Assembly: GCF_000003815.2 (NCBI RefSeq)
Contig: NC_049995.1
Span: forward strand, 3,216,788 to 3,280,787
Length of the DNA: 64,000 bases
Reading direction: 5' to 3'
Origin: Branchiostoma floridae
Lineage: Eukaryota > Chordata > Leptocardii > Amphioxiformes > Branchiostomatidae
Of the stretch, positions 15,062 to 58,420 are shown one piece after another (position 1 is the stretch's first letter; every line of letters begins with the position of its first letter). Made by a program: the position numbers and the translations under genes. A model generated the notes under the pieces. That model did no database searches and was not told the DNA's origin. It saw nothing but the letters and a program-made list of their open reading frames with translations.

Positions 15062-15069
15062 TCTGTGTG
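15062..15069 (+). repeat. Left 8-bp target-site duplication (TCTGTGTG)
   Basis: Directly abuts the first base of the left terminal module and is identical to the 8 bp that follow the last base of the right module. Confidence 0.85.
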
Positions 15070-15353
15070 ACCAGGCTGAAGTTGGCCGCCGATTGGGCCG
15101 CCGATTCGTAGCCGCCGATTGGGCCGCCGATTCGTCATTAGACAAAACATAGCATCCGATTCAGACCCCGATTCGAAGAAACTAAAAATTCCTAATTTCC
15201 GTTAAAAGCTTAAATAAATATCAAGCACAGCTGGATATTGTCTATTACCAACCAATATAGGCAAATATAAACATAAATTATAACAAAAAGTAGAAAATCA
15301 ACGATTAAGCGCAAATAATAGGCCTAATCAGCAGCCACTGTCTTCAGCTTGGT
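15070..15353 (+). repeat. Left terminal module (284 bp) of the giant foldback
   Basis: The module has imperfect inverted ends of its own: ACCAGGCTGAAG at the outside, CTTCAGCTTGGT at the inside, with GGCC-containing sequence next to each. It carries four spaced copies of GCCGCCGATT just inside the outer end, which look like subterminal protein-binding repeats. On its own it has the shape of a MITE, and diverged copies recur inside both arms. Confidence 0.8.
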
Positions 15354-15365
15354 CTAACGTTAGCT

Positions 15366-18345
15366 GCCACACTTCTTCTAGAGCAAACTGCTACTTATCT
15401 AAACGTGGCCCGTGAACTTGTAAGACGAATTAAGATAGCGTATACCCTTAGGTAGTCAATACAAGTGTCAAATATTACGGGCCAGATTTAATTAATAAAC
15501 TAGAGCGTAATTAACTAACACGAAATATGCAAGCAAAGGGGCGCCAAAATCGGCTTTCATACGGCTTCTAGAGCAAACTGCTACTTATCTAAACGTGGCC
15601 CGTGAACTTTTAAGACGAATTCAGATAGCGTATATCATAACGTATACAAAACAAGTGTCAAATCTTACGGGCCGGGTTTAATTAATGATCTACAAGGGAA
15701 TTAATTAATAGGAAATGCGCATGCAAAGGGGCGCTAAAATCGGCTTTCATACGGCTTCTAGAGCAAACTGCTACTTATCTAAACGTGGCCCGTGAGCTTT
15801 TAAGACGAATTAAGATAGCGTACATCATAACGTATACAATACAAGTGTCAAATCTTACGGGCCAGATTTAATCAATGAACTACAAGGGAATTAATTAATA
15901 GGAAATGCGAAAGCAAAGTGGCGCTAAAATCGGCTTTCATACTGCTTCTAGAGCAAACTGCTACTTATCTAAACGTGGCCCTTGAACTTTTAAGACGAAT
16001 TGAGATAGCATATATCATAACGTATTCGATACAAGTGTCAAATCTTACGGGCCAGATTTAATTAATGATCTACAAGGGAATTGATTAATAGGAAATGCGC
16101 AAGCAAAGGGGCGCTAAAATCGATTGCCATACGACTTCTAGAGCAAACTGCTACTTATCTAAACGTGGCCCGTGAACTTTTAAGACGAATTTAGATAGCG
16201 TATACCATAACGTATTCAATACAAGTATCAAATTTAACGGGCCGGATTTGATTAATGATTTACAAGGGAATTAACCAATAGGAAACACGCAAGCAAAGGG
16301 GCGCTAAAATCGGCTTTCATACGACTTCTAGAGCAAACTGCTACTTATCTAAACGTGGCCCGTGAATTTTTAAGATGAATTTAGATAGCGTATACGCTAA
16401 GGTATTCAATACAAGTGTCAAATCTTACGGGCCGGATTTAATTAATGATCTACAAGGGAATTAACCAATAGGAAACACGTAAGCAAAGGGGCGCTAAAAT
16501 CGGCTATCATACGGCTTCTAGAGCAAACTGCTACTTATCTAAACGTGGCCCGTGAACTTTTAAGACGAATGTAGACAGCGTATATCATAACGTATTCAAT
16601 ACAAGTGTCAAATTTTACGGGCCGGATTTAATTAATGAACTACAAGGGAATTAACTAATAGGAAATACGCAAGCAAAGGGGCGCTGAAATCGGCTATATT
16701 ATACGGCTTCTAGAGCAAACTGCTACTTATCTAAACGTGGCCCGTGAACTTTTAAGACGAATTGAGATAGCGTATACCCCAACGTATTCAATACAAGTGT
16801 CAAATCTTACGGGCCGGATTTAATTAATGAACTAGAGCGTAATTAACTAATAGGAAATGCACAGGCCAGGGGCGCTAAAGTCGGCTTTTATAGGACTTCT
16901 AGAGCAAACTGCTACTTATCTAAACGTGGCCCGTGAATTTTTAAGATGAATTTAGATAGCGTATACTCTAAGGTATTTAAAACAAGTGTCAAATCTTACG
17001 GGCCGGATTTAATTAATGATCTACAAGGGAATTAACCAATAGGAAATACGCAAGCAAAGGGGCGTTAAAATCGGCTTTCATACGGCTTCTAGAGCAAACT
17101 GCTACTTATTTAAACGTGGCCCGTCAACTTGAAGACGAATTGAGATAGCGTATATCATAACGTATTCAATTCAAGTGTCAAATCTAACGGGCCGGATTTA
17201 ATTAATGAACTAGACCGTAATTAACTAATAGGAAATGCACAAGCAAGGGCGCTAAAGTCGGCTTTCATACGACTTCTAGAGCAAACTGCTACTTATCCAA
17301 ACGTGGCCCTTGAACTTTTAAGACGAATTGAGATAGCATATATCATAACGTATTCGATACAAGTGTCAAATCTTACGGGCCAGATTTAATTAATGATCTA
17401 AAAGGGAATTGATTAATAGGAAATGCGCAAGCAAAGGGGCGCTAAAATCGATTGCCATACGACTTCTAGAGCAAACTGCTACTTATCTAAACGTGGCCCG
17501 TGAACTTTTAAGACGAATTTAGATAGCGTATACCATAACGTATTCAATACAAGTATCAAATTTACCGGCCGGATTTAATTAATGGACTAGAGGGGAATTA
17601 ACTGATAGGAAATACGCAAGCGAATGGGTGCTAAAATAGGCTGCCATACGGCTTCTAGAGCAAAGTGCTACTTATCCAAACGCGGCCCGTGAACTTGTAA
17701 GGCGAATTAAGATAGCGTATACCCTAACTTATTCAAAACAAGTGTCAAATCTTACGGGCCGGATTTAATTAATGATCTACAAGGGAATTAACCAATAGGA
17801 AACACGCAAGCAAAGGGGCGCTAAAATCGGCTTTCATACGGCTTCTAGAGCAAACTGCTACTTATCTAAACGTGGCCCGTGAACTTTTAAGACGAATGTA
17901 GACAGCGTATATCATAATTTATTCAATACAAGTGTCAAATTTTACGGGCCGGATTTAATTAATGAACTACAAGGGAATTAACTAATAGGAAATACGCAAG
18001 CAAAGGGGCGCTGAAATCGGCTATTATACGGCTTCTAGAGCAAACTGCTACTTATCTAAACGTGGCCCGTGAACTTTGAAGACGAATTGAGATAGCGTAT
18101 ACCCCAACGTATTCAATACAATTGTCAAATCTTACGGGCCGGATTTAATTAATGAACTAGACCGTAATTAACTAATAGGAAATGCACAGGCAAGGGGCGC
18201 TAAAATCGGCTTTTAAAGGACTTCTAGAGCAAACTGCTACTTATCCAAACGTGGCCCGTGAATTTTTAAGATGAATCTAGATAGCGTATACCCTAAGGTA
18301 TTCAATACAAGTGTTAAATCTTACGGACCGGATTTAACTAATGAA
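15366..18345 (+). repeat. ~189-bp satellite array, left arm block 1
   Basis: About sixteen head-to-tail monomers. Landmarks recurring every 188-191 bp: CTTCTAGAGCAAACTGCTAC, AAACGTGGCCCGTGAACTTT, TTACGGGCCGGATTTAATTA, and AGCAAAGGGGCGCTAAAATC. Monomers differ mainly in the middle and around TTAATTAA. Open frames seen here are short and have no coding character. Confidence 0.95.
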
Positions 18346-18349
18346 CAAT

Positions 18350-18950
18350 AGTTGTAGGCGACGATCATAGGCTAGCCGCCGATTCGTTATTAGACAAAAC
18401 ATAGCATCCCGTTCAGACGCCCATTCGAAGAAAGCAAAAAAAATCCTCATTTCGTTGAAAATCTTGAAAAAAATATCAATAACTGCTGAATATTGTCTAT
18501 TACTACCCAATATATGGTTATATAAACATAAGTAATAACAGAAAGTATCATGTCAACGATTAAACACAAATATCAGGCCCCATTGACGACCAAGGCTTCA
18601 GCCTGGTCTGAAATCGGAATCTGTCACTTATTTAAACGTGGCCCGTGAGTTTTTAAGCCAAATTTAGAAAGCGCATACCCTAAGGTATTCAATACAAGTG
18701 TTAAATCTTACGGGCCGGATTTAATTAATGAACTATTGCTGTAGGCGACGACCCAGCCGCCGATTCAAAATTAGAGAAAACATAGCATTCTATTCAGACT
18801 CCCATTCGAAGAAACCAAACAATTCCTGCTCATTTCCTTTAAAAGCTAGAACGGATATCAAGAACTGCTGTTTATTGTCTATTACTATACTACCCAATGT
18901 ATGTATATAGACATATAGATAATACCGGAAAGTATTATATTAACGATTAA
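18350..18950 (+). repeat. Internal spacer: two module copies around a partial monomer
   Basis: Contains a diverged terminal-module copy (about 18350-18612, ending CTTCAGCCTGGTCT), a partial satellite monomer, then a second, different module copy (about 18745-18950). The same ~600-bp arrangement recurs at 21440-22040, about 3.09 kb further on, and in inverted form at 25637-26262 and 27425-28025, so it marks a higher-order unit. Confidence 0.8.
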
Positions 18951-21435
18951 AGGGCCAGATTTAATTAATGATCTACAAGGGAATTAACCAATAGGAAACA
19001 CGAAAGCAAAGGGGCGCTAAAATCGGCTTTCATACGGCTTCTAGAGCAAACTGCTACTTATCTAAACGTGGCCCGTGAACTTTTAAGACGAAAGTGGGCA
19101 GCGTATATCATAACGTATTCAATACAAGTGTCAAATCTTACGGGCCGGATTTAATTAATGAACTACAAGGGAATTAACTAATAGGAAATACGCAAGCAAA
19201 GGGGCGCTGAAATCGGCTATTATACGGCTTCTAGAGAAAACTGCTACTTATCTAAACGTGGCCCGTGAACTTTTAAGACGAATTGAGATAGCGTATACCA
19301 TAACGTATTCAATACAAGTATCAAATTTACCGGCCGGATTTAATTAATGGACTAGAGGGGAATTAACTGATAGGAAATACGCAAGCGAATGGGTGCTAAA
19401 ATAGGCTGCCATACGGCTTCTAGAGCAAAGTGCTACTTATCCAAACGCGGCCCGTGAACTTGTAAGGCGAATTAAGATAGCGTATACCCTAACTTATTCA
19501 AAACAAGTGTCAAATCTTACGGGCCGGATTTAATTAATGATCTACAAGGGAATTAACCAATAGGAAATACGCATGCAAAGGGGCGCTAAAATCGGCTTTC
19601 ATACGACTTCTAGAGCAAACTGCTACTTATCTAAACGTGGCCCGTGAATTTTTAAGATGAATTTAGATAGCGTATACTCTAAGGTATTCAATACAAGTGT
19701 CAAATCTTACGGGCCGGATTTAATTAATGAACTACAAGGGAATTAACTAATAGGAAATACGCAAGCAAAGGGGCGCTGAAATCGGCTATTATACGGCTTC
19801 TAGAGAAAACTGCTACTTATCTAAACGTGGCCCGTGAACTTTTAAGACGAATTGAGATAGCGTATACCCCAACGTATTCAATACAAGTGTCAAATCTTAC
19901 GGGCCGGATTTAATTAATGATCTACAAGGGAATTAACCAATAGGAAATACGCATGCAAAGGGGCGCTAAAATCGGCTTTCATACGACTTCTAGAGCAAAC
20001 TGCTACTTATCTAAACGTGGCCCGTGAATTTTTAAGATGCATTTAGATAGCGTATACTCCAAGGTATTCAATACAAGTGTCAAATCTAACGGGCCGGATT
20101 TAATTAATGATCTACAAGGGAATTAACCAATAGGAAACACGCAAGCAAAGGGGCGCTAAAATCGGCTTTCATACGGCTTCTAGAGCAAACTTCTACTTAT
20201 CTAAACGTGGCCCGTGAACTTTTAAGACGAATGTAGACAGCGAATATCATAACGTATTCAATACAAGTGTCAAATTTTACGGGCCTGATTTAATTAATGA
20301 ACTAGACCGTAATTAACTAATAGGAAATGCACAGGCAAGGGGCGCTAAAGTCGGCTTTTATAGGACTTCTAGAGCAAACTGCTACTTATCCAAACGTGGC
20401 CCGTGAATTTTTAAGATGAATTTAGATAGCGTATACTCTAAGGTTTTAAAAACAAGTGTCAAATCTTACGGGCCGGATTTAATTAATGATCTACAAGGGA
20501 ATTAACCAATAGGAAACACGCAAGCAAAGGGGCGCTAAAATCGGCTTTCATACGGCTTCTAGAGCAAACTGCTACTTATCTAAACGTGGCCCGTGAACTT
20601 TGAAGACGAATTGAGATAGCGTATATTATAACGTATTCAATTCAAGTGTCAAATCTAACGGGCCGGATTTAATTAATGAACTAGACCGTAATTAACTAAT
20701 AGGAAATGCACAAGCAAGGGCGCTAAAGTCGGCTTTCATACGACTTCTAGAGCAAACTGCTACTTATCCAAACGTGGCCCGTGAATTTTTAAGATGAATT
20801 TAGATAGCGTATACTCTAAGGTATTCAATACAAGTGTCAAATCTTACGGGCCGGATTTAATTAATGATCTACAAGGGAATCAACCAATAGGAAACACGCA
20901 AGCAAAGGGGCGCTGAAATCGGCTATTATACGGCTTCTAGAGCAAAATGCTACTTATCTAAACGTGGCCTGTGAACTTTTAAGACGAATGTAGGCAGCGT
21001 ATATCATAACGTATTCAATACAAGTGTCAAATTTTACGGGCCGGATTTGATTAATGAACTACAAGGGAATTAACTAATAGGAAATACGCAAGCAAAGGGG
21101 CGCTGAAATCGGCTATATTATACGGCTTCTAGAGCAAACTGCTACTTATCTAAACGTGGCCCGTGAACTTTTAAGACGAATTGAGATAGCGTATACCCCA
21201 ACGTATTCAATACAAGTGTCAAATCTTACGGGCCGGATTTGATTAATGAACTAGACCGTAATTAACTAATAGGAAATGCACAGGCAAGGGGCGCTAAAAT
21301 CGGCTTTTAAAGGACTTCTAGAACAAACTGCTACTTATCCAAACGTGGCCCGTGAATTTTTAAGATGAATCTAGATAGCGTATACCCTAAGGTATTCAAT
21401 ACAAGTGTTAAATCTTACGGACCGGATTTAACTAA
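18950..21435 (+). repeat. ~189-bp satellite array, left arm block 2
   Basis: About thirteen monomers of the family described for block 1, same orientation. Together with the following spacer it forms a ~3.09-kb higher-order repeat; an identical short frame starting MNYCCRRR recurs at 18728 and 21822. Confidence 0.93.
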
Positions 21436-21439
21436 TGAA

Positions 21440-22040
21440 CAATAGTTGTAGGCGACGATCATAGGCTAGCCGCCGATTCGTTATTAGACAAAACATAGCA
21501 TCCCATTCAGACGCCCATTCGAAGAAAGCAAAAAAAATCCTCATTTCGTTGAAAATCTTGAAAAAAATATCAATAACTGCTGAATATTGTCTATTACTAC
21601 CCAATATATGGTTATATAAACATAAGTAATAACAGAAAGTATAATGTCAACGATTAAACACAAATATCAGGCCCCATTGACGACCAAGGCTTCAGCCTGG
21701 TCTGAAATCGGAATCTGTCACTTATTTAAACGTGGCCCGTGAGTTTTTAAGGCAAATTTAGAAAGCGCATACCCTAAGGTATTCAATACAAGTGTTAAAT
21801 CTTACGGGCCGGATTTAATTAATGAACTATTGCTGTAGGCGACGATCCAGCCGCCGATTCAAAATTAGAGAAAACATAGCATTCTATTCAGACTCCCATT
21901 CGAAGAAACCAAACAATTCCTGCTCATTTCCTTTAAAAGCTAGAACGGATATCAAGAACTGCTGTTTATTGTCTATTACTATACTACCCAATGTATGTAT
22001 ATAGAAATATACATAATACCGGAAAGTATTATACTAACGA
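21440..22040 (+). repeat. Internal spacer, second copy
   Basis: Near-identical to 18350-18950, with only scattered substitutions and small changes. This indicates a recent segmental duplication of the [array + spacer] unit. Confidence 0.8.
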
Positions 22041-22044
22041 TTAA

Positions 22045-22835
22045 AGGGCCAGATTTAATTAATGATCTACAAGGGAATTAACCAATAGGAAACACGCAAG
22101 GAAAGGGGCGCTAAAATCGGCTTTCATACGGCTTCTGGAGCAAACTGCTACTTATCTAAACGTGGCCCGTAAACTTTTAAGACGAATTAAGATAGCGTAT
22201 ACTCTAACGTATTCAATACAAGTTTCAAATTTTATACAGGCCAGATTTAATTAATGAACTACAGGACAATTAATTTATAAGAAATACGCAAGCAAAGGGG
22301 CGCTAAAATCGATTGCCATACGACTTCTAGAGCAAACTGCTACTTATCTAAACGTGGCCCTTGAACTTTTAAGACGAATTTATATGGCGTATACCCTAAC
22401 GTATCCAATACAAGTATCGAATCTTACGGGCCAGATCTAATTAATGAACTACAGGGCAATCAACTAATAAGAAATACGCAAGCAAAGGGGCGCTAAAATA
22501 GATTGCCATACGACTTCTAGAGCAAACTGCTACTTATCTAAACGTGGCCCTTGAACTTTTAAGACGAATTTATATGGCGTATACCCTAACGTATTCAATA
22601 CAAGTATCGAATCTTACGGGCCAGATTTAATTAATGAACTACAGGGCAATCAACTAATAAGAATTACGCAAGCAAAGGGGCGCTAAAATCGATTGCCATA
22701 CGACTTCTAGAGCAAACTGCTACTTATCCAAACGTGGCCCGTGAACTTTTAAGACGAACTTAGATAGCGTATACTCTAAAGTATTCAATACAAGTATCAA
22801 ATCTTACTGTCCAGATTTGATTAATGAACTATAGC
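22045..22835 (+). repeat. ~189-bp satellite array, left arm block 3 (innermost)
   Basis: Four monomers, more diverged than the outer ones. It ends in a truncated module piece (22836-22900) carrying GCCGCCGATTCGTGATTAG and the motif GCATCCTAAGAATCCCT. Confidence 0.9.
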
Positions 22836-22900
22836 TGTAGGCGACGATCTAGCCGCCGATTCGTGATTAGACAAAACTTAGCATCCTAAGAATCCCTCTG

Positions 22901-24053
22901 AAACAACAGTGACAAACAGCAACCTACGTATAACATGTGTTACCGTGATCTTAACAAAATGAAGGATGATTTACAAACTTTCATTTTCAGTTTAGAGTAA
23001 AACTTTGTTTCAGAAAACAAGCTATATGTGTCCCCTCGGCACCTTTCTTGGCATTCAGGCGTAAAATTTCATTACATCAGTGACATGCGGAAAGGCGCCT
23101 CATGCCTCTTCTTTCCGTTACTGGTTGTGTAGGATAATAATGGGTTACAGATGTGGAGTGTCTCTCCCTTATAATCAGGACAACATGCAAACAAAGTAAT
23201 GTGCGTTCCCTCGTCAAGAGCACCTTTGCCTTATGTGTTTTAGTTTTTATTGGTCCTTGTTGCCTAAAGTTTACAAGGGCCAATATCATGAAAGCCAACC
23301 GGTTCAAGGGAAAGTCAAGCTCGTTGCTTGTCAGTTAAGGTGGGCTCCCACTGCACTCGCGTCACGCTTGCGTCGCTTCGGGGTTCGTTCATTGTGTCAC
23401 TGTTGTGTTATTTTCGCCGATTTTCTGTTGCGCTCCCACTGACAGGGGTCACTGTTGCGTTTCTAGACTAAATGGACAGGTTACCGGAAGTCGCAGCGTT
23501 GTCAATGTATGAAAAATCACTGTAAAATGATGAAAATCCCTAAAAATGCGATGAAACAACTTCCATTGTGATGATGCTTATGCTTATGAATGTAACTTAT
23601 GTTATATGATAACCTTGAAAGACTTTTACAGTAAAAGAAGTAACCCAAATGAATGGACACGAACCATATACCAGATTTGACTCCATCATCGGCGCTTATG
23701 TGTTTTGCAACAAGTAAGTGTAATGGTGTGTGTTAATTTGCATATTTCACAAATGAAAAATCTTGATATTTCCTACGTTTTAATAGGAAATAGACAAAAT
23801 ATAACCGTGATACTGTTGAAGGCATGTCGGCGTCACTGTTGTGTCACTGTTGTGTTACTCTTGGGTCACTGTTGTAACTGAAAAACTGCTGTAAAATGAT
23901 ATCCAAAATGTATCCAAAATAGCTTTTCAATAATAAAATGATGTTTACTTTTGATACTTGGTGCAAAATAGACAAAATATAACCTTGATACTGTTGAAGA
24001 CATGTTGGCGTCACTATTGTGTCACTGTTGTGTTACTCTTGGGTCACTGTTGT
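22901..24053. other. Central unique region of the giant foldback, left part
   Basis: No gene recognised; open frames are at most about 76 codons. It holds a direct duplication of about 80 bp, 178 bp apart (around 23789 and 23967), in a stretch rich in GTCACTGTTGTGT variants (23800-24060). The truncated module end with GCATCCTAAGAATCCCT at about 22885-22900 is repeated directly at about 24685-24700, so the region between may be a later insertion or a duplication. Confidence 0.55.
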
Positions 24054-24381
24054 GTCACTCTTGGGTCACTGTTGGGGCATCTTGCCACTTGCGTTTTTTT
24101 TAAAACTTCCCAAAAAACGTCGCGCTTGCTTGTGTCACCTCTAGGTTGCNNNNNNNNNNNNNNNNNNNNNNNNNNNNNNNNNNNNNNNNNNNNNNNNNNN
24201 NNNNNNNNNNNNNNNNNNNNNNNNNNNNNNNNNNNNNNNNNNNNNNNNNGCAGAGGGGACGCGAGCGAACCAAGAGGCGACACAAGCAAACCGAGAGGAG
24301 ACGCAAGCAAGCGCGACGTCTTACGGGAAGTCCAAAAAAAACGCAAGTGGCAAGATGCCCCAACAGTGACCCAAGAGTGAC
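24054..24381. mobile_element. Nested inverted-repeat element spanning the N gap
   Basis: The left end GTCACTCTTGGGTCACTGTT and the right end AACAGTGACCCAAGAGTGAC are perfect inverted repeats. The arms continue through a GGGGCATCTTGCCACTTGCG-type segment and a CGTCGCGCTTGCTTG-type segment before the 100-N gap at 24150-24249. The right end abuts a satellite monomer fragment (AGTTTGCTCTAGAAG). Reading frames here that contain X are artefacts of the gap. Confidence 0.65.
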
Positions 24382-24399
24382 AGTTTGCTCTAGAAGCCG

Positions 24400-24700
24400 T
24401 ATGCTGTTGGCGACGATCCAACCGCCGATTCAAAATTAGAGAAATCGTAGCATAGTATTCAGACGCCCATTCGAAGAAACGAAACAATTCCTCATTTCCT
24501 TTAAAAGCTAGAACGGATATCAAAAACTGCTGTTTATTGTCTATTACTACCCAAGACGAATTTACAAAGCGCATATCTTAACGTACTTGATAAAAGTATC
24601 TAATCTTTTGGGCCGGACTTAATTAATGAACTATAGTTGTAGGCGACGATTTCGCCGCCGATTCGTGATTAGACAAAACTTAGCATCCTAAGAATCCCTT
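24400..24700 (+). repeat. Two truncated module copies right of the gap
   Basis: GACGATCCAACCGCCGATTC (about 24411) starts one partial module. GCCGCCGATTCGTGATTAG (about 24652) starts another, which ends at GCATCCTAAGAATCCCT. A short diverged piece of monomer (GGGCCGGACTTAATTAATGA) lies between them. Confidence 0.7.
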
Positions 24701-25440
24701 GACCGGCCGAAAGGCCTTCATGACTGGAAGTCGTTCCGGCAGGTTTGTGATAACTCACCATGGCTATTGGTAATTGGCGTGTAAATAGCCAATTACACGC
24801 CCAGTGTTTCTAACCTCCCCTTTGACAACTGTCCCCTGCCGCGACATTGGAGAGGGTTGGGTGGTCGCCAGATGTGACAGACAGATAGACTTATTTATTA
24901 GAAAGAATTCATTAGCTGAATGCCTAGTTGGCGAACATATATAGCAATATCATTACAGTTATGAGTTAGGTATTAGGTGTGGGGTCTTTACCATGGATTC
25001 ATGCAACTGAATTAGAAACTTGAAAGACATCTACAACTCAGTACGTCTGACGTTGTGTTGTGACAGCCAGGAGAGGAAATTGGATCTTGCTGAGACAAAA
25101 CTCCCCAGAGTTGTGGGCAGAATGGGCAATGCGTTTCCTGTGTGTTTCAAAGTCGCTCGAAAAACATATAGCAGGACGGACTTGAATTATATGCCACTAT
25201 ACTATTCACTCTTACTGCGATGTATTTTATATCAGATAAAAATATCAAAATTACATTCTCACAAGACTGTTAGATTTCTATGGCCGTCTGTAAACAGGCA
25301 TTTTTTGTACTATAATGATGCTTTTGAAGACAAATTATTTATAGACCTTGACCTTAAGACCTTGGCTCTTGTGAATACACCTTGTCTTGCCATAAAAAAA
25401 GCCCAGCTGTACGGGCTGCTACTGCTATGACGATTTTAGC
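24701..25440 (+). other. Central unique region of the giant foldback, right part
   Basis: A frame of 136 codons (25020-25430; TTG at its first position, contains MPLYYSLLLRCILYQIKISK) is the longest in the centre of the element. I recognise no domain in it, and there are no transposase or zinc-finger motifs. The segment also carries a short palindromic stretch (GGTAATTGGCGTGTAAATAG with AATTACACGCC following). Confidence 0.3.
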
Positions 25441-25449
25441 CCCGGCCCT

Positions 25450-28400
25450 CCTTTGCTTGCGCATTTCCTCGCATTGTTAGTAAATTCCACTGTAGTTCAT
25501 TAATTAAATCCGGCCCGTAAGATTTCATACTTGTATTAAATACGTTATTGTATACGCTATCTAAATTCGTCTTCAAAGTTCACGGGCCGCGTTTAGATAA
25601 GTGGCAGATTGCTCTAGAAGCCGACAGCTGATGTCAGACCAGGTTGAAGTCGGTCGCCGATTAGGCCTACATTTGTGCTTTAATCGTTGATAAAATACTT
25701 TCTGGTATTATCTATATTTCTATATACATACATTGGGTAGTAATAGACAATAAACAGCAGTTCTTGATATCCGTTCTAGCTTTTAAAGGAAATGAGGAAT
25801 TGTTTGGTTTCTTCGAATGGGAGTCTGAATAGAATGCTATGTTTTCTCTAATTTTGAATCGGCGGCTGGATCGTCGCCTACAGCAATAGTTCATTAATTA
25901 AATCCGGCCCGTAAGATTTAACACTTGTATTGAATACCTTAGGTTATGCGCTTTCTAAATTTGCCTTAAAAATTCACGGGCCACGTTTGAATAAGTGACA
26001 GATTCCGATTTCAGGCCAGGCTGAAGCCTTGGTCGTCAATGGGGCCTGATATTTGTGTTTAATCGTTGACATAATACTTTCTGTTATTACTTATGTTTAT
26101 ATAACCATATATTGGGTAGTAATAGACAATATTCAGCAGTTATTGATATTTTTTTCAAGATTTTCAACGAAATGAGGATTTTTTTTTTCTTTCTTCGAAT
26201 GGGCGTCTGAATGGGATGCTATGTTTTGTCTAATAACGAATCGGCGGCTAGCCTATAACTATTGTTCATTAGTTAAATCCGGCCCGTAAGATTTAACACT
26301 TGTATTGAATACCTTAGGGTATACGCTATTTAGATTCATCTTAAAAATTCACAGGCCACGTTTGGATAAGTAGCAGTTTGTTCTAGAAGTCCTATAAAAG
26401 CCGATTTTAGCGCCCCTTGCCTGTCCATTTCCTATTAGTTAATTACGGTCTAGTTCATTAGTTAAATCCGGCCCGTAAGATTTGACACTTGTATTGAATA
26501 CGTTATGATGTACGCCATCTCAATTCGTCTTAAAAATTCACGGGCCACGTTTGGATAAGTAGCAGTTTGCTCTAGAAGTCCTATAAAAGCCGACTTTAGC
26601 GCCCCTTGCCTGTGCATTTCCTATTAGTTAATTACGGTCTAGTTCGTTGATTAAATCCGGCCCGTAAAATTTGACACTTGTATTGAATACGTTGGGGTAT
26701 ACGCTATCTCAATTCGTCTTAAAAGTTCACGGGCCACGTTTAGATAAGTAGCAGTTTGCTCTAGAAGCCGTATAATAGCCGATTTCAGCGCCCCTTTGCT
26801 TGCGTATTTCCTATTAGTTAATTCCCTTGTAGTTCATTAATTAAATCCGGCCCGTAAAATTTGACACTTGTATTGAATACGTTATGATATACGCTGCCTA
26901 CATTCGTCTTAAAAGTTCACGGGCCACGTTTAGATAAGTAGAAGTTTGCTCTAGAAGCCGTATGAAAGCCTATTTTAGCGCCCCTTTGCTTGCGTGTTTC
27001 CTATTGGTTAATTCCCTTGTAGATCATTAATTAAATCCGGCCCGTAAGATTTGACACTTGTATTGAATACGTTGGGGTATACGCTATCTCAATTCGTCTT
27101 AAAAGTTCACGGGCCACGTTTAGATAAGTAGCAGTTTTCTCTAGAAGCCGTATGAAAGCCGATTTCAGCGCCCCTTTGCTTGCGTATTTCCTATTAGTTA
27201 ATTCCCTTGTAGTTCATTAATTAAATCCGGCCCGTAAGATTTGACACTTGTATTGAATACGTTATGATATACGCTGCCCACTTTCGTCTTAAAAGTTCAC
27301 GGGCGACGTTTAGATAAGTAGCAGTTTGCTCTAGAAGCCGTATGAAAGCCGATTTTAGCGCCCCTTTGCTTTCGTGTTTCCTATTGGTTAATTCCCTTGT
27401 AGATCATTAATTAAATCTGGCCCTTTAATCGTTAATATAATACTTTCCGGTATTATCTATATTTCTATATACATACATTGGGTAGTATAGTAATAGACAA
27501 TAAACAGCAGTTCTTGGTATCCGTTCTAGCTTATAAAGGAAATGAGCAGGAATCGTTTGGTTTCTTCGAATGGGAGTCTGAATAGAATGCTATGTTTTCT
27601 CTAATTTTGAATCGGCGGCTGGGTCGTCGCCTACAGCAATAGTTCATTAATTAAAGTCGGCCCGTAAGATTTAACACTTGTATTGAATACCTTAGGGTAT
27701 GCGCTTTCTAAATTTGGCTTAAAAACTCACGGGCCACGTTTAAATAAGTGACAGATTCCGATTTCAGACCAGGCTGAAGCCTTGGTCGTCAATGGGGCCT
27801 GATATTTGTGTTTCATCGTTGACATAATACTTTCTGTTATTACTTATGTTTATATAACCATATATTGGGTAGTAATAGACAATATTCAGCAGTTATTGAT
27901 ATTTTTTTCAAGATTTTCAACGAAATGAGGATTTTTTTTGCTTTCTTCGAATGGGCGTCTGAATGGGATGCTATGTTTTGTCTAATAACGAATCGGCGGC
28001 TAGCCTATGTATGTCGCCTACAACTATTGTTCATTAGTTAAATCCGGCCCGTAAGATTTAACACTTGTATTGAATACCTTAGGGTATACGCTATCTAGAT
28101 TCATCTTAAAAATTCACGGGCCGCGTTTGGATAAGTAGCAATTTGTTCTAGATGTCCTTTAAAAGCCGATTTTAGCGCCCCTTGCCTGTGCATTTCCTAT
28201 TAGTTAATTACGGTCTAGTTCATTAATGAAATCCGGCCCGTAAGATTTGACAATTGTATTGAATACGTTGGGGTATACGCTATCTCAATTCGTCTTAAAA
28301 GTTCACGGGCCACGTTTAGATAAGTAGCAGTTTGCTCTAGAAGCCGTATAATAGCCGATTTCAGCGCCCCTTTGCTTGCGTATTTCCTATTAGTTAATTC

Positions 28401-29502
28401 CCTTGTAGTTCATTAATTAAATCCGGCCCGTATAATTTGACACTTGTATTGAATACGTTATGATATACGCTGCCTACATTCGTCTTACAAGTTCACAGGC
28501 CACGTTTAGATAAGTAGAAGTTTGCTCTAGAAGCCGCATGAAAGCCGATTTTAGCGCCCCTTTGCTTGCGTGTTTCCTATTGGTTGATTCCCTTGTAGAT
28601 CATTAATTAAATCCGGCCCGTAAGATTTGACACTTGTATTGAATACGTTGGGGTATACGCTATCTCAATTCGTCTTAAAAGTTCACGGGCCACGTTTAGA
28701 TAAGTAGCAGTTTGCTCTAGAAGCCGTATGAAAGCCGATTTTAGCGCCCCTTTGCTTGCGCATTTCCTATTAATTAATTCCCTTGTAGATCATTAATTAA
28801 ACCCGGCCCGTAAGATTTGACACTTGTTTTGTATACGTTATGATATACGCTATCTGAAGTCGTCTTACAAATTCACGGGCCACGTTTAGATAAGTAGCAG
28901 TTTGCTCTAGAAGCCGTATGAAAGCCGACTTTAGCGCCATTGCTTGTGCATTTCCTATTAGTTAATTACGGTCTAGTTCATTAATTAAATCTGGCCCGTT
29001 AGATTTGACACTTGAATTGAATACGTTATGATATATGCTATCTCAATTCGTCTTAAAAGTTCACGGGCCACGTTTAGATAAGTAGCAGTTTGCTCTAGAA
29101 GCCGTATGAAAGCCGATTTTAGCGCCACTTTGCTTTCGCATTTCCTATTAATTAATTCCCTTGTAGTTCATTGATTAAATCCGGCCCGTAAGATTTGACA
29201 CTTGTATTGTATACGTTATGATGTACGCTATCTTAATTCGTCTTAAAAGCTCACGGGCCACGTTTAGATAAGTAGCAGTTTGCTCTAGAAGCCGTATGAA
29301 AGCCGATTTTAGCGCCCCTTTGCTTGCATATTTCGTGTTAGTTAATTACGCTCTAGTTTATTAATTAAATCTGGCCCGTAATATTTGACACTTGTATTGA
29401 ATACCTAAGGGTATACGCTATCTTAATTCGTCTTACAAGTTCACGGGCCACGTTTAGATAAGTAGCAGTTTGCTCTAGAAGAAATGTGGCAGCTAACGTT
29501 AG
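25450..29502 (-). repeat. Right arm: inverted ~189-bp satellite arrays with module spacers
   Basis: About fifteen monomers in reverse-complement orientation (GCTCTAGAAGCCGTATGAAA, AAGTTCACGGGCCACGTTTA recurring every ~190 bp). Module spacers lie at about 25637-26262 and 27425-28025 with the same internal order as in the left arm. This arm is 4.3 kb against about 7.8 kb on the left. Either the arms differ in copy number or the hairpin was collapsed in assembly. Confidence 0.9.
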
Positions 29503-29786
29503 ACCAAGCTGAAGACAGTGGCTGCTGATTGGGCCTATTATTTGCGCTTAATCGTTGATTTCCTACTTTTTGTTATAATTTATGTTTATATTTGCCTATA
29601 TTGGTTGGTAATAGACAATATCCAGCTGTGCTTGATATTTATTTAAGCTTTTAACGGAAATTAGGAATTTTTAGTTTCTTCGAATCGGGGTCTGAATCGG
29701 ATGCTATGTTTTGTCTAATGACGAATCGGCGGCCCAATCGGCGGCTACGAATCGGCGGCCCAATCGGCGGCCAACTTCAGCCTGGT
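29503..29786 (-). repeat. Right terminal module (284 bp) of the giant foldback
   Basis: Reverse complement of the left module across its full length; I see only a few substitutions. The inner end reads ACCAAGCTGAAG on the plus strand, and the outer end CTTCAGCCTGGT abuts the target duplication. Confidence 0.8.
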
Positions 29787-29794
29787 TCTGTGTG
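29787..29794 (+). repeat. Right 8-bp target-site duplication (TCTGTGTG)
   Basis: Immediately follows the right terminal module (ending CAGCCTGGT) and matches the 15062-15069 copy base for base. Confidence 0.85.
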
Positions 29795-30427
29795 TCGCAG
29801 CAAAAAGTAGCGTGCTGCCTCGGGAGGCACATTTCCTCGATAATTTATCAATTTTAAGAGTATTTACCTTCTTGAAGGGTAAACTATATCGTCGATAGGG
29901 TAAGTATAGTGCTAGGGGTGACTTGTTAACATTCTAGTGCATGAATGGTGAAAATACGGGCATGTTTTTCTGTGTGTTGCCATTTTGTTCAAAGGGGGAG
30001 GGGGGCACTCTTACTAGTACTTTTCCTCGTAAAAAATTAGCGTCTGTTACTACTATGTAGCAGTTAGATGTAGCAGATGTTTCTGCATTCATAACTGGGT
30101 GATTCAGTTCTTCTTTCCAGATAATGGTGTAAGAATACACCTAGTTCTTCAATGATAAGTGCTTATGTAAAGTGTAATTTGTTTGTCATTATTTCAACAA
30201 AAAGATAGTTACAAAAATCGTTATCTTTCTCCATACTCTTCCTGAAATCCAACTTGGGGGTTTAATCAAGAGGAAACCTCCTTGATCTTAACTTGAGCTT
30301 ACGACTTTTATCATCATACTAAAGCATGTGGTAGTACTTCAAACACCAAGTCTTTCAATGAGTTTTCATCAAGAGAAGAGAGGTCCTTGAAAGCTCCAGG
30401 TCTGATGAAAGCTCCTTGGCCATTTTA

Positions 30428-31160
30428 GGCCCCGTTCATGATGCAAAAAATGAAACGGTTCTATCGGTTACTATCGGTTAGACCAGCTGAAACGGATAAG
30501 TTTTGTCATCATGAACGCTCCGAAACGGATCTGAAGCGATAGGAAACGTTTTTTTCGGAACCTCCTTGCGAGGTAGTATTGAAACGGTTTCTTCCTTATC
30601 TGGAATTGCGAATTTGCATCATGAACGCAAAAGCGGCGTGATCCGTTTTACATCGGGGCATGTGCGTTCATATTTGGTGGCGCCACGGGGGAAAAGTACA
30701 ATTTTTAATCTGTCATTCGGGTGTTTCGGCCGCGTTTTCAGTCGTAAAATTCGTTTTTATTATCAGGCCACCTCCTTGTCGACTGAGGAGCCAGCAGTCC
30801 TGATATCGCAAGGGGAATGTGTCAGGAGATCCAGTGGAGATGTCATAGCATGGCATATATCGGGACCACAATGTTTTCAGAGGCATTTCCAAGGTCATAA
30901 CAGAACCCAGCTTCCAATTCAGTAAGACATTAGTTCAATTTCGATCAAAGACCAATAATCTGACACGGAAGTACAAGTTTAGGCAAGATCACAACAACCT
31001 CAGGGGTCAGAGGTCGCATTACCATGCCTTTTCAAGGAACTGAAACGGTTTGCAAGTTTGCATCATGAACGCAAAATGCAAACCGTTTCCTGTCGTTTGC
31101 TGTCGGATTTCCAGGCCTAACCGATAGAACCATTTCATTTTTTGCATCATGAACGGGGCC
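30428..31160. mobile_element. PIF/Harbinger-type non-autonomous element, TTA duplication
   Basis: Ends GGCCCCGTTCATGATGCAAA and its reverse complement form inverted repeats of about 45 bp, continuing to the GGTTCTATCGGTTA segment. TTA flanks both ends (30425-30427, 31161-31163). The phrase CATCATGAACGC recurs inside. The 119-codon frame at 30566-30925 lies inside and shows no transposase feature. It sits just upstream of POLR2K. Confidence 0.8.
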
Positions 31161-36288: not shown

Positions 36289-37260
36289 CTAAGCTGTAAT
36301 AGTGCTTACACTTGAGCCGGTGGTACATGTGCTAGTACTGGTTATTCTTTCCCTAGTCACCGTCTTACTCTGTTCGGACGTTGGATGAACCTTTGTGCTC
36401 ATTTTCTTCAGTGCTTTCGACATCATTGTGAACACCATTCCAAGAAACGCCATTCCAAACCCGGTCCAAAGCAAGATGAAGACCCTATAGAATACCAGAT
36501 TAACAGAATACTCCCTGTCAATCCGTTCCCCGGTTACGTAGTCCCCGAAACCGACTGTACTGAGGGTAATAAAGACGAAGTAGAAAGAGTCTCCGTAAGT
36601 CCAATCTTCCACGATGTGTACCATCCAAGTAGGGATGACGAAAAAGACGACCATCCCGACAGCAACACGACTGGCGTTGCAACTCCTCTCAACCCACTGC
36701 CGATTCCATTGTGGCCGCTTTTCCGATATCTTCTTCGCCAAAAACCGGGAAAAGTTCCTCATCCTTTCGGCGATGGCTGAGACGGTTAAGGCGGTTAGAG
36801 GGATCCCTAGCGTTGCGTACGCTACGCAGAAGGCTTTCCCTGCGGTGGTTACCGGAGAGAAGTGCCCGTACCCGATCGTAGTCAACAGCGCTCCGCTAAT
36901 CCCTAACGCACCGTCCATTCCCCACCGCTTTCGAGAACTCTTTTCCTCGGTACTATCTGGATGCAGCCCCCACGATTGAGCCTTAAAAAATAAATCAAGC
37001 ATTCCATGTAACTCTTCCTGTGTGAGCACTACAACAGGTGACGATTCGTCAGAATTGAAACATTGTGAACTGTTCTGCCATCTTCTGGAAAGGTTTCGTT
37101 TGAACTCCCAGAATTCGATACGCATTTTTTCCTCCGCAGGTGACTCCAGTGCGTGAAAGATAACGGCTCCGAAAATCAAATACACGAAGAAAGCCAGTAG
37201 TAAGCCGGTGGTGACAAAGTTTTTCAGTTTGTGCAGCATGACTTGAGAAATAGGAGCCAT
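36289..37260 (-). CDS. Two-pore-domain potassium channel (KCNK family), single exon
   Basis: Plasma-membrane K2P leak potassium channel; the family works as dimers setting resting potential. Starting at the ATG at 37260 the protein is 323 residues. Visible in order: M1 (about 14-38), an extracellular cap region (39-111, with Cys67 as a possible inter-subunit cap cysteine and an NSS glycosylation motif nearby), pore loop 1 with TTIGYGH (GYG at 130-132), M2 (about 141-166), a basic cytoplasmic linker, M3 (about 199-218), pore loop 2 with STVGFGDYV (GFG at 237-239), M4 (about 256-281), and a short Ser/Thr-rich tail of about 40 residues. GYG then GFG is the usual K2P pair. The reading frame stays open upstream to a GTG at 37332, and an in-frame TAA lies beyond it. 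The first ATG (A at -3, G at +4) is therefore the better start. The GFGDYV pore and the short tail recall the TREK/TALK/TASK side of the family; I cannot assign a subfamily. No intron is seen in the coding region. Confidence 0.93.
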   Translation of the reverse strand: MAPISQVMLHKLKNFVTTGLLLAFFVYLIFGAVIFHALESPAEEKMRIEFWEFKRNLSRRWQNSSQCFNSDESSPVVVLTQEELHGMLDLFFKAQSWGLHPDSTEEKSSRKRWGMDGALGISGALLTTIGYGHFSPVTTAGKAFCVAYATLGIPLTALTVSAIAERMRNFSRFLAKKISEKRPQWNRQWVERSCNASRVAVGMVVFFVIPTWMVHIVEDWTYGDSFYFVFITLSTVGFGDYVTGERIDREYSVNLVFYRVFILLWTGFGMAFLGMVFTMMSKALKKMSTKVHPTSEQSKTVTRERITSTSTCTTGSSVSTITA

Positions 37261-38154
37261 ATTGTAGTATAGTCTGTGTCTGTTGCGCTTCTTTCTCGAC
37301 GTTTCTCCCTGTTTGTTGCGGCCTGTGTCCACGTTTGGGGGTGCCTTGTGGTATAGGACCTGGTGTTGTTACTGTACGTACAGTTTGCACGGAATGTCTC
37401 CTTGACTCTTAGTTGTGTTGACGACTTTTTCTTCTACCCACAGTCTCCTAGGTACCGCTTCGTAGCTATTGTTGTTGTTGCGATTTTTGTCAACGGTTCT
37501 CCCTGTTTGTTCCGTTTCTCTACTATTTCCTATGACTGGGTCAGATGCCTCCTTGATTCCTATAACTAGCAGTATTTGCGCTGACGATTTTTCTATCCCA
37601 TGCATCCACAGTAGTTAGCGTTCATCCGCACTTTCTTTCCCCTGTTCACATCGGAGTTGCTAGCTGTTGATGACTCACCTTGTATCGTCAGTACTTCAAA
37701 CGCTTCTGTGTGTTTTTACACAAAAAGCCACCCAAAGGTTTCTCTTTGAATAAATGGATTAGTTCATAAAACTCATTACTCACATTTGGATACCTAATCA
37801 TGCTATTGCCTTCAAGTAATTCACCTGATGAATTATTGATCTGTCTCGCCCAACCAGATAAAAAAGAAGTAAAACAACAAGTTTGTATTTGCCATTGTTT
37901 CCTTGGTGATATCGTATTCAGCATCACGAAAGCATTAAGATCTCATGATTCGACTATTGTCTGATGGCGTCTTTTTTTTCAAGAAGTAATTCTATCTGGT
38001 AAGAAAATCTGATTAATTATTTAGAAGTGGCAAAGACAATCAATACAACAATATGGGGAATTATGGAGTGAAATGATGATTGAAATATTATACACCTGTT
38101 TATCGTGGGATATTTAATATGTGTGTAGAGATCATACTCCCTCACCAACCAATC
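37261..38154. other. Upstream region of the potassium channel gene
   Basis: Would contain its 5' untranslated region and promoter. The minus strand stays open to 37332 and then meets an in-frame TAA at about 37370. No TATA box or other motif I trust. Confidence 0.4.
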
Positions 38155-41076: not shown

Positions 41077-44000
41077 ATGGACCCACGTCACATGACCTTC
41101 CTGATGACTGATTATCCAGGGCCACCTCAGGAACCGTTTCAGCCAAAAGGTAGTTATTTTATTTTGTTTATTTATTTATCTATTTATTGGTTTGGCTGTT
41201 CAGAATGCACAGCCAGGGCTGCCCAACAAGCCTAGGCTATTACAAAGGGCTTAAGCCCTGCTGACAAAAACTGAGACAAAATGTACTACTACTAAGTAGT
41301 TCTTTTTTATCCGTGGGGATTACCTAGATCCGTTGTTTTTAGGGATGTCGACATGCAGTGGGTTCAATCAATATTGTCAAAATATTACAGTTTGAAGCAA
41401 CCATTCTTATCTTGAATTTGCTGTCCCTTGACGGTTTATAAACCAATATAAAGCAACAATTTTCTTTCTATCAGACTGAATGATTCTGTCCTTTTTGACA
41501 TTCTTTAATGCAGTTACTACTCCGTCGGAGAGAGGCGTACTGGCCGTTCTTAAACAAATTGAGAACAACCAGCGGATCAGCAGTAGCGAAGTCTGGCACA
41601 AAAAACGAGCAGACGGAAAGAAGGTACACCTGCTTTAGATGTCATAATTTTGATATAGTGAAAGCGACCATTAAATGCTTGCTATCATTTAGTCAAAAAG
41701 GGGAGGGTGGTACACACGTGTCAGACGTAATGTGTCAGTTATTGTGAAGATCGCCATAGAGGAGGCTGATATTACCGTGATATAATTCTCTAAGCAGATC
41801 TGTCAGGGGCAAGGACAGATTCCAAAGGGGTAACGGTAAGGATTAGGGTTAGGGTTAGGTTTAGGGTTATGGTTAGATGACTAGGGTTAAGTTAGGTTAG
41901 GGTTAGTTGTAGGGTTAGGTTAGGTGTAGGGCTAGGGCTAGGGCTAGGGCTAGGGCTAGCTATACGGGGCCAATAGAAACTAAGCCCTTGGATACTGTCG
42001 TTGCCGCCAGTATATCCATTTGGAGACGAATGTTTCTGTGTCTTTCTAGGTTCGTGTTCTCATCAAGGCTTCCATCGTCTCTCTAACAGAGATCGACACC
42101 GTGAAGCAGTCATTCTCGGCTGAAGTCTGGCTCTCAGCCTACTTCAAGGAACCTCTGCTCAAGGGGAAGAAGGACAGAGAGGTAAGAGACAAGACACAAT
42201 TAATGTTATAAACTTAAATTGCCACACTTAAAAGGCTGAGCTGCCTTTATCTGGCTTTCACATATACAACAAGAAGCCTCTACTGAATTCTAAAATAGAG
42301 AACGTAGAAAATCTTTTCCTTTGAACTATTATGCCATGTCCAGGTAACTTACAGATTGGTTAGGTCTACAACTTTGCTATTTTCATACATATATCATTAT
42401 GTCGTAGACAAGCAATTACCATGAACTGATCAGGTTTCTTTAACCAACCAACATGGCGTATACTACATGACGTCATAATGTCATGTGATTAACACTTTCA
42501 TTTCTTTTTAAAATCAGGAGGTTGACTGGGCTGACCAATGGGATCCACGGATTGTGCTTTTCAACGCTGTAACGGTCGATAAAGAAGAGATCAAACACAA
42601 CCTGATCCTGTCCGACATGGACGACATTCCCATCGTACAGATCACCAGGAGGGTGCAGGCAACCTTCAAGGAGCCGATGAAGCTGGCAAACTTTCCCTTC
42701 GACTACCAGGTTAGCATTTTTTTATCGTAACCTTAATTAAACTTCAGCCTGCTATAATTATTTACTTAGGTAACCGTAAGAGGTATATAGGCAGCAGTGA
42801 GAAGGTCAGATAGTCAAAGACACTCCTTGTAATGCTAGTTCACATTCATCTGTTCGGTAACCTATATCCGTTGCTTTTCAAAAACAGCATATTTAGGCAC
42901 ATCAAGTCGAAGCTAGGGTGGTAGTTTTAAACTGCAATATCATGAGAGTATTGCAATTTGAAACTAACATTCATCATTAAAGTGAATCATTATTATCCCC
43001 CAATACCCTGTTTTTAATCGCAACGGATATAGGTTACCCAATGAATAAAGGTGAACTAGCGTTAACATCTATTATCATAATACCGGCCGTTTACGACGAT
43101 TTCTCTAGCCATACTGATTTGACAAATTGTCAATGCATCATTTTCTCCAGTTACATGTTGCTGTTATAGGTTACCCTTGCCACTTCTTCTGTGTAACTTT
43201 TCTGCCACTCTTGTCCTGCTAAAAGCGTAATATCGTAATTGTAACACGCCGTGGAATTACACGGCGAACGGGCGCGTGGTTGGGAGGGGGTACAAAATAC
43301 CGGCCGGAAGAAACACGGCACAATTAACTGTCGCTATGTACCTTTATACATCCTCCATGTTCCTTCCTTTTCTGTTTTAAGTAAATGCATAAAACATAAA
43401 CCTGCATGAGCATACAAAATGTCATGAGAAAACGGACATATACTGTCAAGAATTTTCATTTAACTTGCGTCCGCCACAACCGCTATGACGTACAGTGTAA
43501 CACTTCACTGCTAGCGTAGATATAAAAATGGCGGGAAAATGGCTGCGTACGTTCAATTTTGCCCATTCAGTCGTAGATCCGGGCTATTATGCAATGGTTC
43601 TTCACACTTTTACATGAGTTGTAGGTCGATCACCAACAGAAATTCAAGATTGCTGTTGAATCATGTTCGTCTTGTGCCGTGAGCATGTGTAATTATGATC
43701 TACAAATCTGGCAATGAATGTGACAGTGTGTTCGTCCCACGACGAGCTGCCTGTCCTGAAAAAGATACTGAAAACTTTTCGCCTTGTTGTCTTCGAATGC
43801 ATTGTAATCGATGCTTTGTAAATGATGTATTGGACACCTAGATGTCTGAAGTGTGCATACCTCAGAAATAACTATTGTTGCACGTGTAGATCTCTTTAAA
43901 TTCCATTATTTTTTATCGGCCGGTATAAGTCTTACGGCCGGTATTATGCCAATGCATGTTAAGAGTTTAGGCAGAAAAAATAAGCATATTAGATACTAGT

Positions 44001-58129: not shown

Positions 58130-58420
58130 ACAGTATATAGCTAATTAATAGCGAAAAAACGTGTTCAGAAGAGAAACTGTGCCAATTTGAATGACACAAA
58201 AAATAGCGCCGTAAGAATTGTACATATAACGTTATATAGCTAACTTGTAGCGGAAAAAGTGTTTAGAAGACAAACTGTGTCAATTTGAATGACACATCTA
58301 AAGGACCGTTGTGCGCTGCATTAAGTGTATACAGCTAACTAATAGCGAAAAACGTGTTCAGAAGAGAAACTGTGTCAATTTGAATGACAGACTTACAGAA
58401 CAGTAAGAACAAGAGTTCGT
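58130..58420 (+). repeat. Outlying copies of the ~90-bp palindromic satellite
   Basis: Three degenerate monomers with GTGTTCAGAAGA..AAACTGTG and the TGTGTCA / TGACACA core, separated from the main array by about 2 kb of other sequence. The main array is of the same orientation. Confidence 0.8.

Follow-up and report, generated by a model that had tools for sequence, protein, structure and literature searches.

A probable foldback transposon with satellite arms and 8-bp target-site duplications in the lancelet Branchiostoma floridae

The window, i.e. the whole stretch of 64,000 nucleotides of Branchiostoma floridae DNA that was analysed, contains an inserted element of approximately 14.7 kb at positions 15070–29786 (C17:3231857–3246573). 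The element is flanked by two copies of the 8-bp sequence TCTGTGTG (15062–15069 on the left and 29787–29794 on the right, both unstranded), which agree at 8/8 positions, as an earlier note on this DNA had stated; the span 15062–29794 given there is exact once both duplications are included. The 276-bp left terminal module (15070–15345, plus strand) starts with ACCAGGCTGAAGTTGGCCGC and contains a 26-bp direct repeat (TRF, 15085–15135), and the right module, likewise 276 bp (29511–29786, minus strand), has GCGGCCAACTTCAGCCTGGT as its final bases. Both are inverted relative to each other and differ at 2/276 positions, in agreement with the near-identity previously described. The ACCAGGCTGAAG end of elements of this type, referred to as type A, goes with 8-bp duplications. 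For estimation of chance agreement, flanks at the spacing of the element were compared in 200,000 random window placements (drawn with repetition), 27 of which gave a match of 8/8; in 42 non-cognate flank pairings from seven related elements the longest common length was 2. BLAST of the element against the window gave 0 hits beyond the element bounds at 1e-5.

Inwards of the modules lie two satellite arms (7.8 kb left, 4.3 kb right), whose monomers of about 190 bp are inverted between the arms. The left array (15375–22835, plus strand) comprises 30 full-length monomers plus partial ones, and the right array (25444–29481, minus strand) 13 full-length monomers plus partial ones. The earlier count of roughly 48 thus falls between the 43 full-length monomers and the 56 BLAST matches obtained when partial copies are counted. 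The arrays are interrupted by spacers made of degenerate end modules (75–82% identity to the end module): in the left arm at 18375–18950 (plus strand; copies of 81% and 76% flanking a partial monomer) and 21469–22044 (plus strand; 82% and 76%), in the right arm at 27425–28000 (minus strand; 75% and 81%), with further degenerate copies at 25656–26248 (minus strand; 79% and 82%). Both left-arm spacers are set 3,094 bp apart, and together with their adjoining monomers they suggest a segmental duplication of about 3.1 kb within this arm. The core, or middle domain (22887–25489, unstranded, about 2.6 kb), also contains module and monomer fragments, and parts of it are common to two further loci, L025 (98.4%) and L027 (96.8%), and to C17:14840810 (97%). 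Within the core lies an assembly gap of 100 N (24150–24249, unstranded), bracketed by a 49-bp perfect inverted repeat (24053–24101/24334–24382); because of this gap, the left and right arms are joined by scaffolding and not by read sequence. The gap is absent from the earlier note.

The genome was searched for further loci with the same ends and 8-bp direct repeats, as the earlier note had advised. Ends with up to 3 mismatches were counted at 145 + 125 sites (control: 1 + 2). Exact end sites numbered 79 (13 of type A, 38 outer and 22 inner ends of a second type, B, and 6 others), and the module was present at ≥97% identity in 13 of the 79; the 13 A modules differ pairwise at 0–6 of 276 positions. 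Perfect 8-bp duplications were found in three of five paired A-type copies, namely the window element, L025 and L027, the latter two with duplications of their own, TATCTTTC and CCCACCCA, respectively; each agrees at 8/8 positions and extends no further. The lack of other copies with target duplications, named beforehand as an outcome that would speak against transposition, was therefore not encountered. Flanks without a match were seen at the two remaining A-type pairs, both on C1, and at the two pairs of a third type, C. Assembly gaps are present in all three clean copies. One C1 copy is entangled with the window locus in the assembly: at C1:2019753, a flank of 984 bp is 100% identical to window positions 29787–30770 and is bordered by 1.7 kb of N or more, and the end modules are identical to those of the window. 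Misassembly of A-type elements elsewhere, as at C1:2019753, is likely.

Monomer order was compared by reciprocal best pairs and is kept between some copies and arms, while copy number varies among both. The left arm of the window element and the left arm of L025 share 9 such pairs (rank correlation 0.98), and the right arm of the window element shares 8 with the latter (rho 0.86); the two arms of L025 (5 pairs, rho 1.0) and of L027 (6 pairs, rho 0.83) are likewise ordered. No collinearity was found between the two arms of the window element (rho 0.37, p 0.33) or between its left arm and the right arm of L027 (rho 0.62, p 0.10). Among 81 monomers, the nearest neighbour lay in the same arm for 20, in the opposite arm of the same element for 27 and in a different element for 34. 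The latter number is below that obtained by label shuffling (49.9 ± 5.3), hence the arrays evolve within each copy too.

Two related families share parts with the element. In the second family (B), the A-type body is found inside other ends, with 6-bp duplications exact in 7/12 copies and TACGAAGGACC as the corresponding end. Body and junction are common to A and B from the module inwards, the modules themselves differing by about 18%. The B copies examined carry at most three whole or partial monomer matches per arm, and those on C11, C137 and C3 have their core in common with L023. By eye, the module bears inverted ends of its own, which are degenerate in A (GCAGCCACTGTCTTCAGCTTGGT) and nearly perfect in B copies, e.g. 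at L024. In the third family (C), the same end is joined to an unrelated 194-bp satellite, for which homology to the A monomer was not above that of shuffled sequences. End identity is 100% (A–B) and 95% (A–C) at positions 1–21 and 81% and 78% at positions 22–130, figures which are unusable as evidence of constraint on the terminal bases, since the ends were selected by the same 20-mer or its one-mismatch form.

Coding capacity was assessed in the element and its relatives. Five core ORF pieces (four from the window, one from L025) gave no Pfam match above cut-off (one weak match, 14.3 bits, cut-off 23), and inspection by eye of the six longest ORFs (≥110 aa) of each of 18 sequences, i.e. the window element and 17 loci, revealed no transposase. 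The B-type copies on C11, C137 and C3 were likewise without a transposase visible by eye, and no autonomous partner was found among the copies examined. L021 was considered as an autonomous copy and rejected: its end match is limited to the outer 41 bp and a nearby 23 bp, and five ORFs run against Pfam yielded one C-type lectin and one thrombospondin domain, probably host exons. By eye, a 497-aa frame at L026 resembles a reverse transcriptase, and the C11 copy of type B also bears an apparent non-LTR retrotransposon. Regarding superfamily, duplications of 8 bp are made by Mutator and by other superfamilies as well. The 8 bp observed at three pairs lie within the Mutator (MULE) range of 8–11 bp given in the available part of PMC6446971, where evidence of MULE transposases is also reported to be lacking for B. 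floridae; none was recognised in the copies examined here, with ten ORFs run against Pfam. The 7-bp duplication of Galileo, a member of the P superfamily (PMC3573991, in the part available), differs from the exactly 8 bp at three loci.

Taken together, the window element is very probably a non-autonomous foldback DNA transposon of the lancelet that was inserted as one unit. It has the long terminal inverted repeats containing tandem repeats that define the foldback class, and the target-site duplications of this class were found at the same three of five A-type pairs, the two on C1 being the exceptions. Movement of the whole block, as proposed earlier, is supported by the perfect duplication, by the same ends with perfect duplications of their own at L025 and L027, and by a monomer order found again in one or more further copies. 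In the proposed mechanism, a transposase provided in trans would bind the termini at both ends and excise or copy the whole block, which would then be inserted via an 8-bp staggered cut. The satellite arrays would travel with the element, with unequal exchange or slippage causing them to grow and shrink, and there would be partial conversion between the arms.

Unrelated satellite ends could instead have been scaffolded across the N gap, an artefact to which both the gap and the probably misassembled C1:2019753 copy with its duplicated flank and identical end modules would lend themselves; as the flanks agree at 8/8 positions across the gap, and do so in two other gapped copies, this is very improbable. 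Long-armed palindromes can also arise by recombination or replication error. An inverted duplication of this kind, formed without transposition, is hardly credible here given direct 8-bp duplications at three sites and nearly identical termini.

Two further readings concern the origin of the parts. The inverted ends borne by the module itself would permit a composite transposon, in which two separate 276-bp inverted-repeat modules surround a satellite block and, in the manner of composite elements of bacteria, mobilise it through the outermost ends of the two modules. A solo module with an 8-bp duplication was, however, not noticed in an unsystematic look at the 79 exact end sites (six of which, the others, are without a traced partner), and the module–monomer junction, similar by eye in A and B, suggests an old joint structure; we consider a composite unlikely. 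The common body and junction would also fit an A element cut from B, with outer ends and minisatellite lost and the exposed inner module end as new terminus; as the arms of the B copies examined hold so few monomers, the A arrays may have expanded later. Yet the relation could run the other way, A having been inserted into a foldback of B type whose arms then converted each other, and the divergence of the modules implies that neither is a recent derivative; we regard descent of A from B as less likely than not. We tentatively suggest, with somewhat less than even confidence, a modular arrangement: a single satellite-bearing body would be mounted on two end types (8-bp and 6-bp duplications, hence probably two different transposases) and one end type would be joined to two unrelated satellites of nearly equal period (190 and 194 bp), cargo and ends evolving independently and being swapped.

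With the foldback transposon as the preferred reading, the locus is evidence that, in a non-vertebrate chordate, some 40 satellite monomers can be placed together at a new site within an element whose target duplication is still intact. The previously proposed seeding of satellite DNA at new loci is seen here for arrays inside the element. As body and ends are common to families with different duplication lengths, it becomes testable whether satellites ride any available transposase, and also whether monomer periods around 190 bp, similar to a nucleosome repeat length, are favoured.

FB elements of Drosophila melanogaster and TU elements of sea urchin have long inverted repeats with short tandem subrepeats, not satellite-sized ones. 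Helitron-class elements make, to our knowledge, no target duplication. In open-licence PMC literature, no report on amphioxus foldback transposable elements was found, nor, in titles and abstract openings, one of amphioxus satellite DNA in such an element; amphioxus MITEs are named LanceletTn (PMC5802833, available part). According to the accessible part of PMC7492417, Cg_HINE Helentrons of the Pacific oyster are likewise non-autonomous, spread satellite-like arrays and combine flanks and repeats modularly, but they belong to the Helentron superfamily and carry central repeats instead of inverted satellite arms. Galileo (P superfamily, Drosophila mojavensis) is foldback-like, with repeats of about 210 bp in some arms and chimeric copies with mismatched flanks, and differs in its 7-bp duplications, known P-type transposase and longest arms of about 1.26 kb (PMC3573991, same part).

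Tetris of Drosophila virilis, the best precedent and compared by published architecture alone, is a foldback element with an outermost flanking domain, tandem repeats of about 220 bp and a middle domain that seems to encode no protein, in that order, and with 8–9-bp duplications in its three complete copies (PMC4079207, in the part available, as for all Tetris data below). The 8 bp at three pairs lie within the 8–10 bp given for Tetris, a length that is by itself no proof of membership. Tetris also shares its ends with another element, DAIBAM, and no autonomous copy of it was found; its repeats have 87% mean similarity inside complete elements, and allelic copies carry 3 and 4 of them. In the available part of PMC12910113, Tetris is in the reference list only. 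Of 610 Tetris repeats, 395 lie on repeat-only contigs, and derived arrays reach up to 66 copies, as opposed to the 43 full-length monomers within a duplication-flanked element described here, and the hosts are unrelated. With these arm repeats and those of Galileo as precedents, the word unusual in the earlier note is not supported as it stands; only arm length and the parts shared between families stand out. New in comparison with Tetris are arms of 7.8 and 4.3 kb versus up to 1.7 kb (1,735 bp), a body shared with a 6-bp-duplication family and an end joined to a second satellite.

The window element lies at 15070-29786 of the window (C17:3216788-3280787, in a genome of 513 Mb) and is flanked on both sides by TCTGTGTG. 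Its end modules, 276 bp each, differ from each other at 2/276 positions, and the near-identical inverted ends with the same 8 bp outside, as described in the earlier note, were thus confirmed. Inward of the modules follow inverted arms of 7,817 bp (left) and 4,343 bp (right) with 30 and 13 full-length monomers of ~190 bp, respectively; BLAST with the monomer gave 56 matches, partial copies included, so that the ~48 monomers initially claimed lie between the 43 full-length units and the 56 matches. Degenerate end-module copies (75–82% identity) break up the arrays, and the two arms are linked by a 2.6-kb core containing a 100-N gap within a palindromic stretch. A 49-bp perfect inverted repeat and GTCACTGTTGT-type 11-bp repeats around this gap (24053-24382) are probably a small nested element.

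Outside the element, the window gave no BLAST match to any part of it; this includes two tandem arrays at 60420-63351 (89-bp unit, ~33 copies) and 58133-58389 (95-bp unit, 2.6 copies), whose consensus sequences are similar. At 41835-41959, ~21 chromosome-internal GGTTAG units (74% match) were found, a rotation of the letters of the telomere repeat TTAGGG. A 359-aa ORF at 36292-37368 (−) encodes a potassium channel of the K2P type (PF07885). Among 5.8 billion proteins searched, its only close named relative is Branchiostoma lanceolatum KCNK16 (79% identity across 85% of the length), which identifies the host as a lancelet.

An exact search of the genome for the 20-mer at the element's end gave 79 sites (44 forward, 35 reverse; reversed control: 0). 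All 79 sites were classified by flank and module identity, an A-type end being defined as a module at least 97% identical across at least 255 bp: 13 A-type, 38 B outer, 22 B inner and 6 other. The A-type ends form five pairs and three single ends (C15, C17:14840810, C18:12266304). Perfect 8-bp duplications border three of the five pairs, namely the window element (TCTGTGTG) and the copies at loci L025 (TATCTTTC) and L027 (CCCACCCA); the two pairs without matching 8-bp flanks are both located on C1. When 200,000 placements were drawn at random within the window, 27 gave an 8-bp match at the element's spacing, and non-cognate flank pairings had at most two bases in common (0/42 with six or more). 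The suggested search for further copies with the same end and 8-bp duplications was therefore successful at L025 and L027, and with duplications at three A-type pairs the claim that the block moved as one unit has good support.

The first C1 copy (C1:2019753-2030625) is an A-type pair whose flanks lack a matching duplication. The 984 bp at its start are 100% identical to the right flank of the window element (29787-30770) and stop at a stretch of N at least 1.7 kb long. The end modules agree crosswise with those of the window element, left with right and right with left, with 0 differences. In its right arm, 15/15 full-length monomers pair in order with monomers 1–15 of the window's left arm (98.9–100%), and 12 of the 21 in its left arm correspond, likewise in order, to 12 of the window's 13 right-arm monomers; the remaining nine are one single block. 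The right flank has no match to the window's left flank. Given the identity in flank, modules and monomer order, this copy may in part be either a different version of the window locus that was assigned to C1 or a copy of very recent origin attached to the wrong flank. Part of the window locus is present again on another large contig (C1:2018769-2030625; loci L001, L009, L010), probably as an assembly duplication or a misplaced haplotype that differs in monomer number. The second C1 copy begins 71 bp beyond the first; the two cases suggest that the assembly mixes up arms of the A-type family, and matching duplications at three gapped copies therefore carry weight.

Reciprocal best monomer pairs were collinear between the left arms of the window element and L025 (nine pairs, rank correlation 0.98), the window right and L025 left arm (eight, 0.86), and the two arms of L025 (five, 1.0) and of L027 (six, 0.83). 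No significant order correlation was obtained between the two window arms (0.37, p 0.33) or between the window left and L027 right arm (0.62, p 0.10). For the 81 monomers of the clean copies (window, L025 and L027; the C1 copy's 36 were excluded), the nearest neighbour lay in the same arm in 20 cases, in the opposite arm of that element in 27 and in another element in 34, versus 49.9 ± 5.3 for the latter under shuffled labels. On these pairings and counts, the arrays are read as having shared a common descent, which local duplication and exchange between arms within a copy would have followed. The first monomer, adjoining the module, is 0.98–1.0 alike across most copies versus ~0.90 to others in its own arm, with L027 left (0.92) and C18:12266304 (95%) as exceptions.

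B-type copies were recovered through the 20-mer end. Their outer end starts with TACGAAGGACC, and their module, ~82% identical to the A module, sits together with its 20-mer end within a GCTGTGTGCTCACAGC-type minisatellite. Each arm contains at most three monomer matches, whole or partial, and the module–monomer junction, compared by eye, is similar in A and B. Exact 6-bp duplications were found in 7/12 B-type copies (two on C2, one each on C5 and C137, and on C1 at ~4.46, 15.33 and 25.2 Mb), the 12 including those on C8 and C19, whose flanks allowed no evaluation. The copy on C18 matches at 5/6 bases, that on C11 has the same six flank bases shifted by two, and that on C1 at ~7.43 Mb has flanks without a 6-bp match. 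Inside the C11 element, a 968-aa ORF (locus L108, 3866-6769, −) resembles, by eye, a non-LTR retrotransposon endonuclease/reverse transcriptase.

The C-type family, represented by pairs L087 and L088 and the single end L081, has only the outer 130 bp in common with A (80–82% identity). Inward of these, both pairs carry their own ~540-bp domain and then arrays whose 194-bp monomer has no detectable homology to that of A; the periods are nearly equal (194 bp, by TRF also 387, in both pairs; 190 bp, 380, in the window). Target duplications were found in 0/2 C-type pairs, both of which contain gaps.

The perfect 8-bp duplications indicate that insertion took place by a staggered cut at ends beginning with ACCAGGCTGAAG. 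No transposase was recognised among the element's ORFs checked (Pfam, by eye), for which reason mobilisation may have taken place in trans, by an enzyme supplied elsewhere. Duplications of 8 bp are compatible with several transposon superfamilies; they fit the range described for MULEs (PMC6446971). Since the duplication lengths differ (8 vs 6 bp), the A and B families were likely moved by two different enzymes.

In the literature searched, mostly by title and start of abstract, no description was found of a lancelet element of this type that combines intact duplications around 4–8-kb arms with a body common to 8-bp and 6-bp families. Satellite transport by transposons, foldbacks in particular, is already known from Tetris, Galileo and the oyster Cg_HINE Helentrons. 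Galileo is described with ~210-bp repeats in some arms, arms of at most ~1.26 kb, and chimeric copies without matching flanks (PMC3573991), Cg_HINE with a modular combination of flanks and satellite-like repeats (PMC7492417). Tetris is described with the same architecture as the window element, 8–9-bp duplications in all three of its complete copies, repeats that are 87% similar within complete elements, and allelic copies varying in repeat number (PMC4079207). The element, whose long satellite arms were called unusual in the earlier note, is by this analogy Tetris-like as a kind; what stands out and is of interest is the body shared across families with swapped ends, as seen in the 6-bp survey of copies found via one 20-mer.
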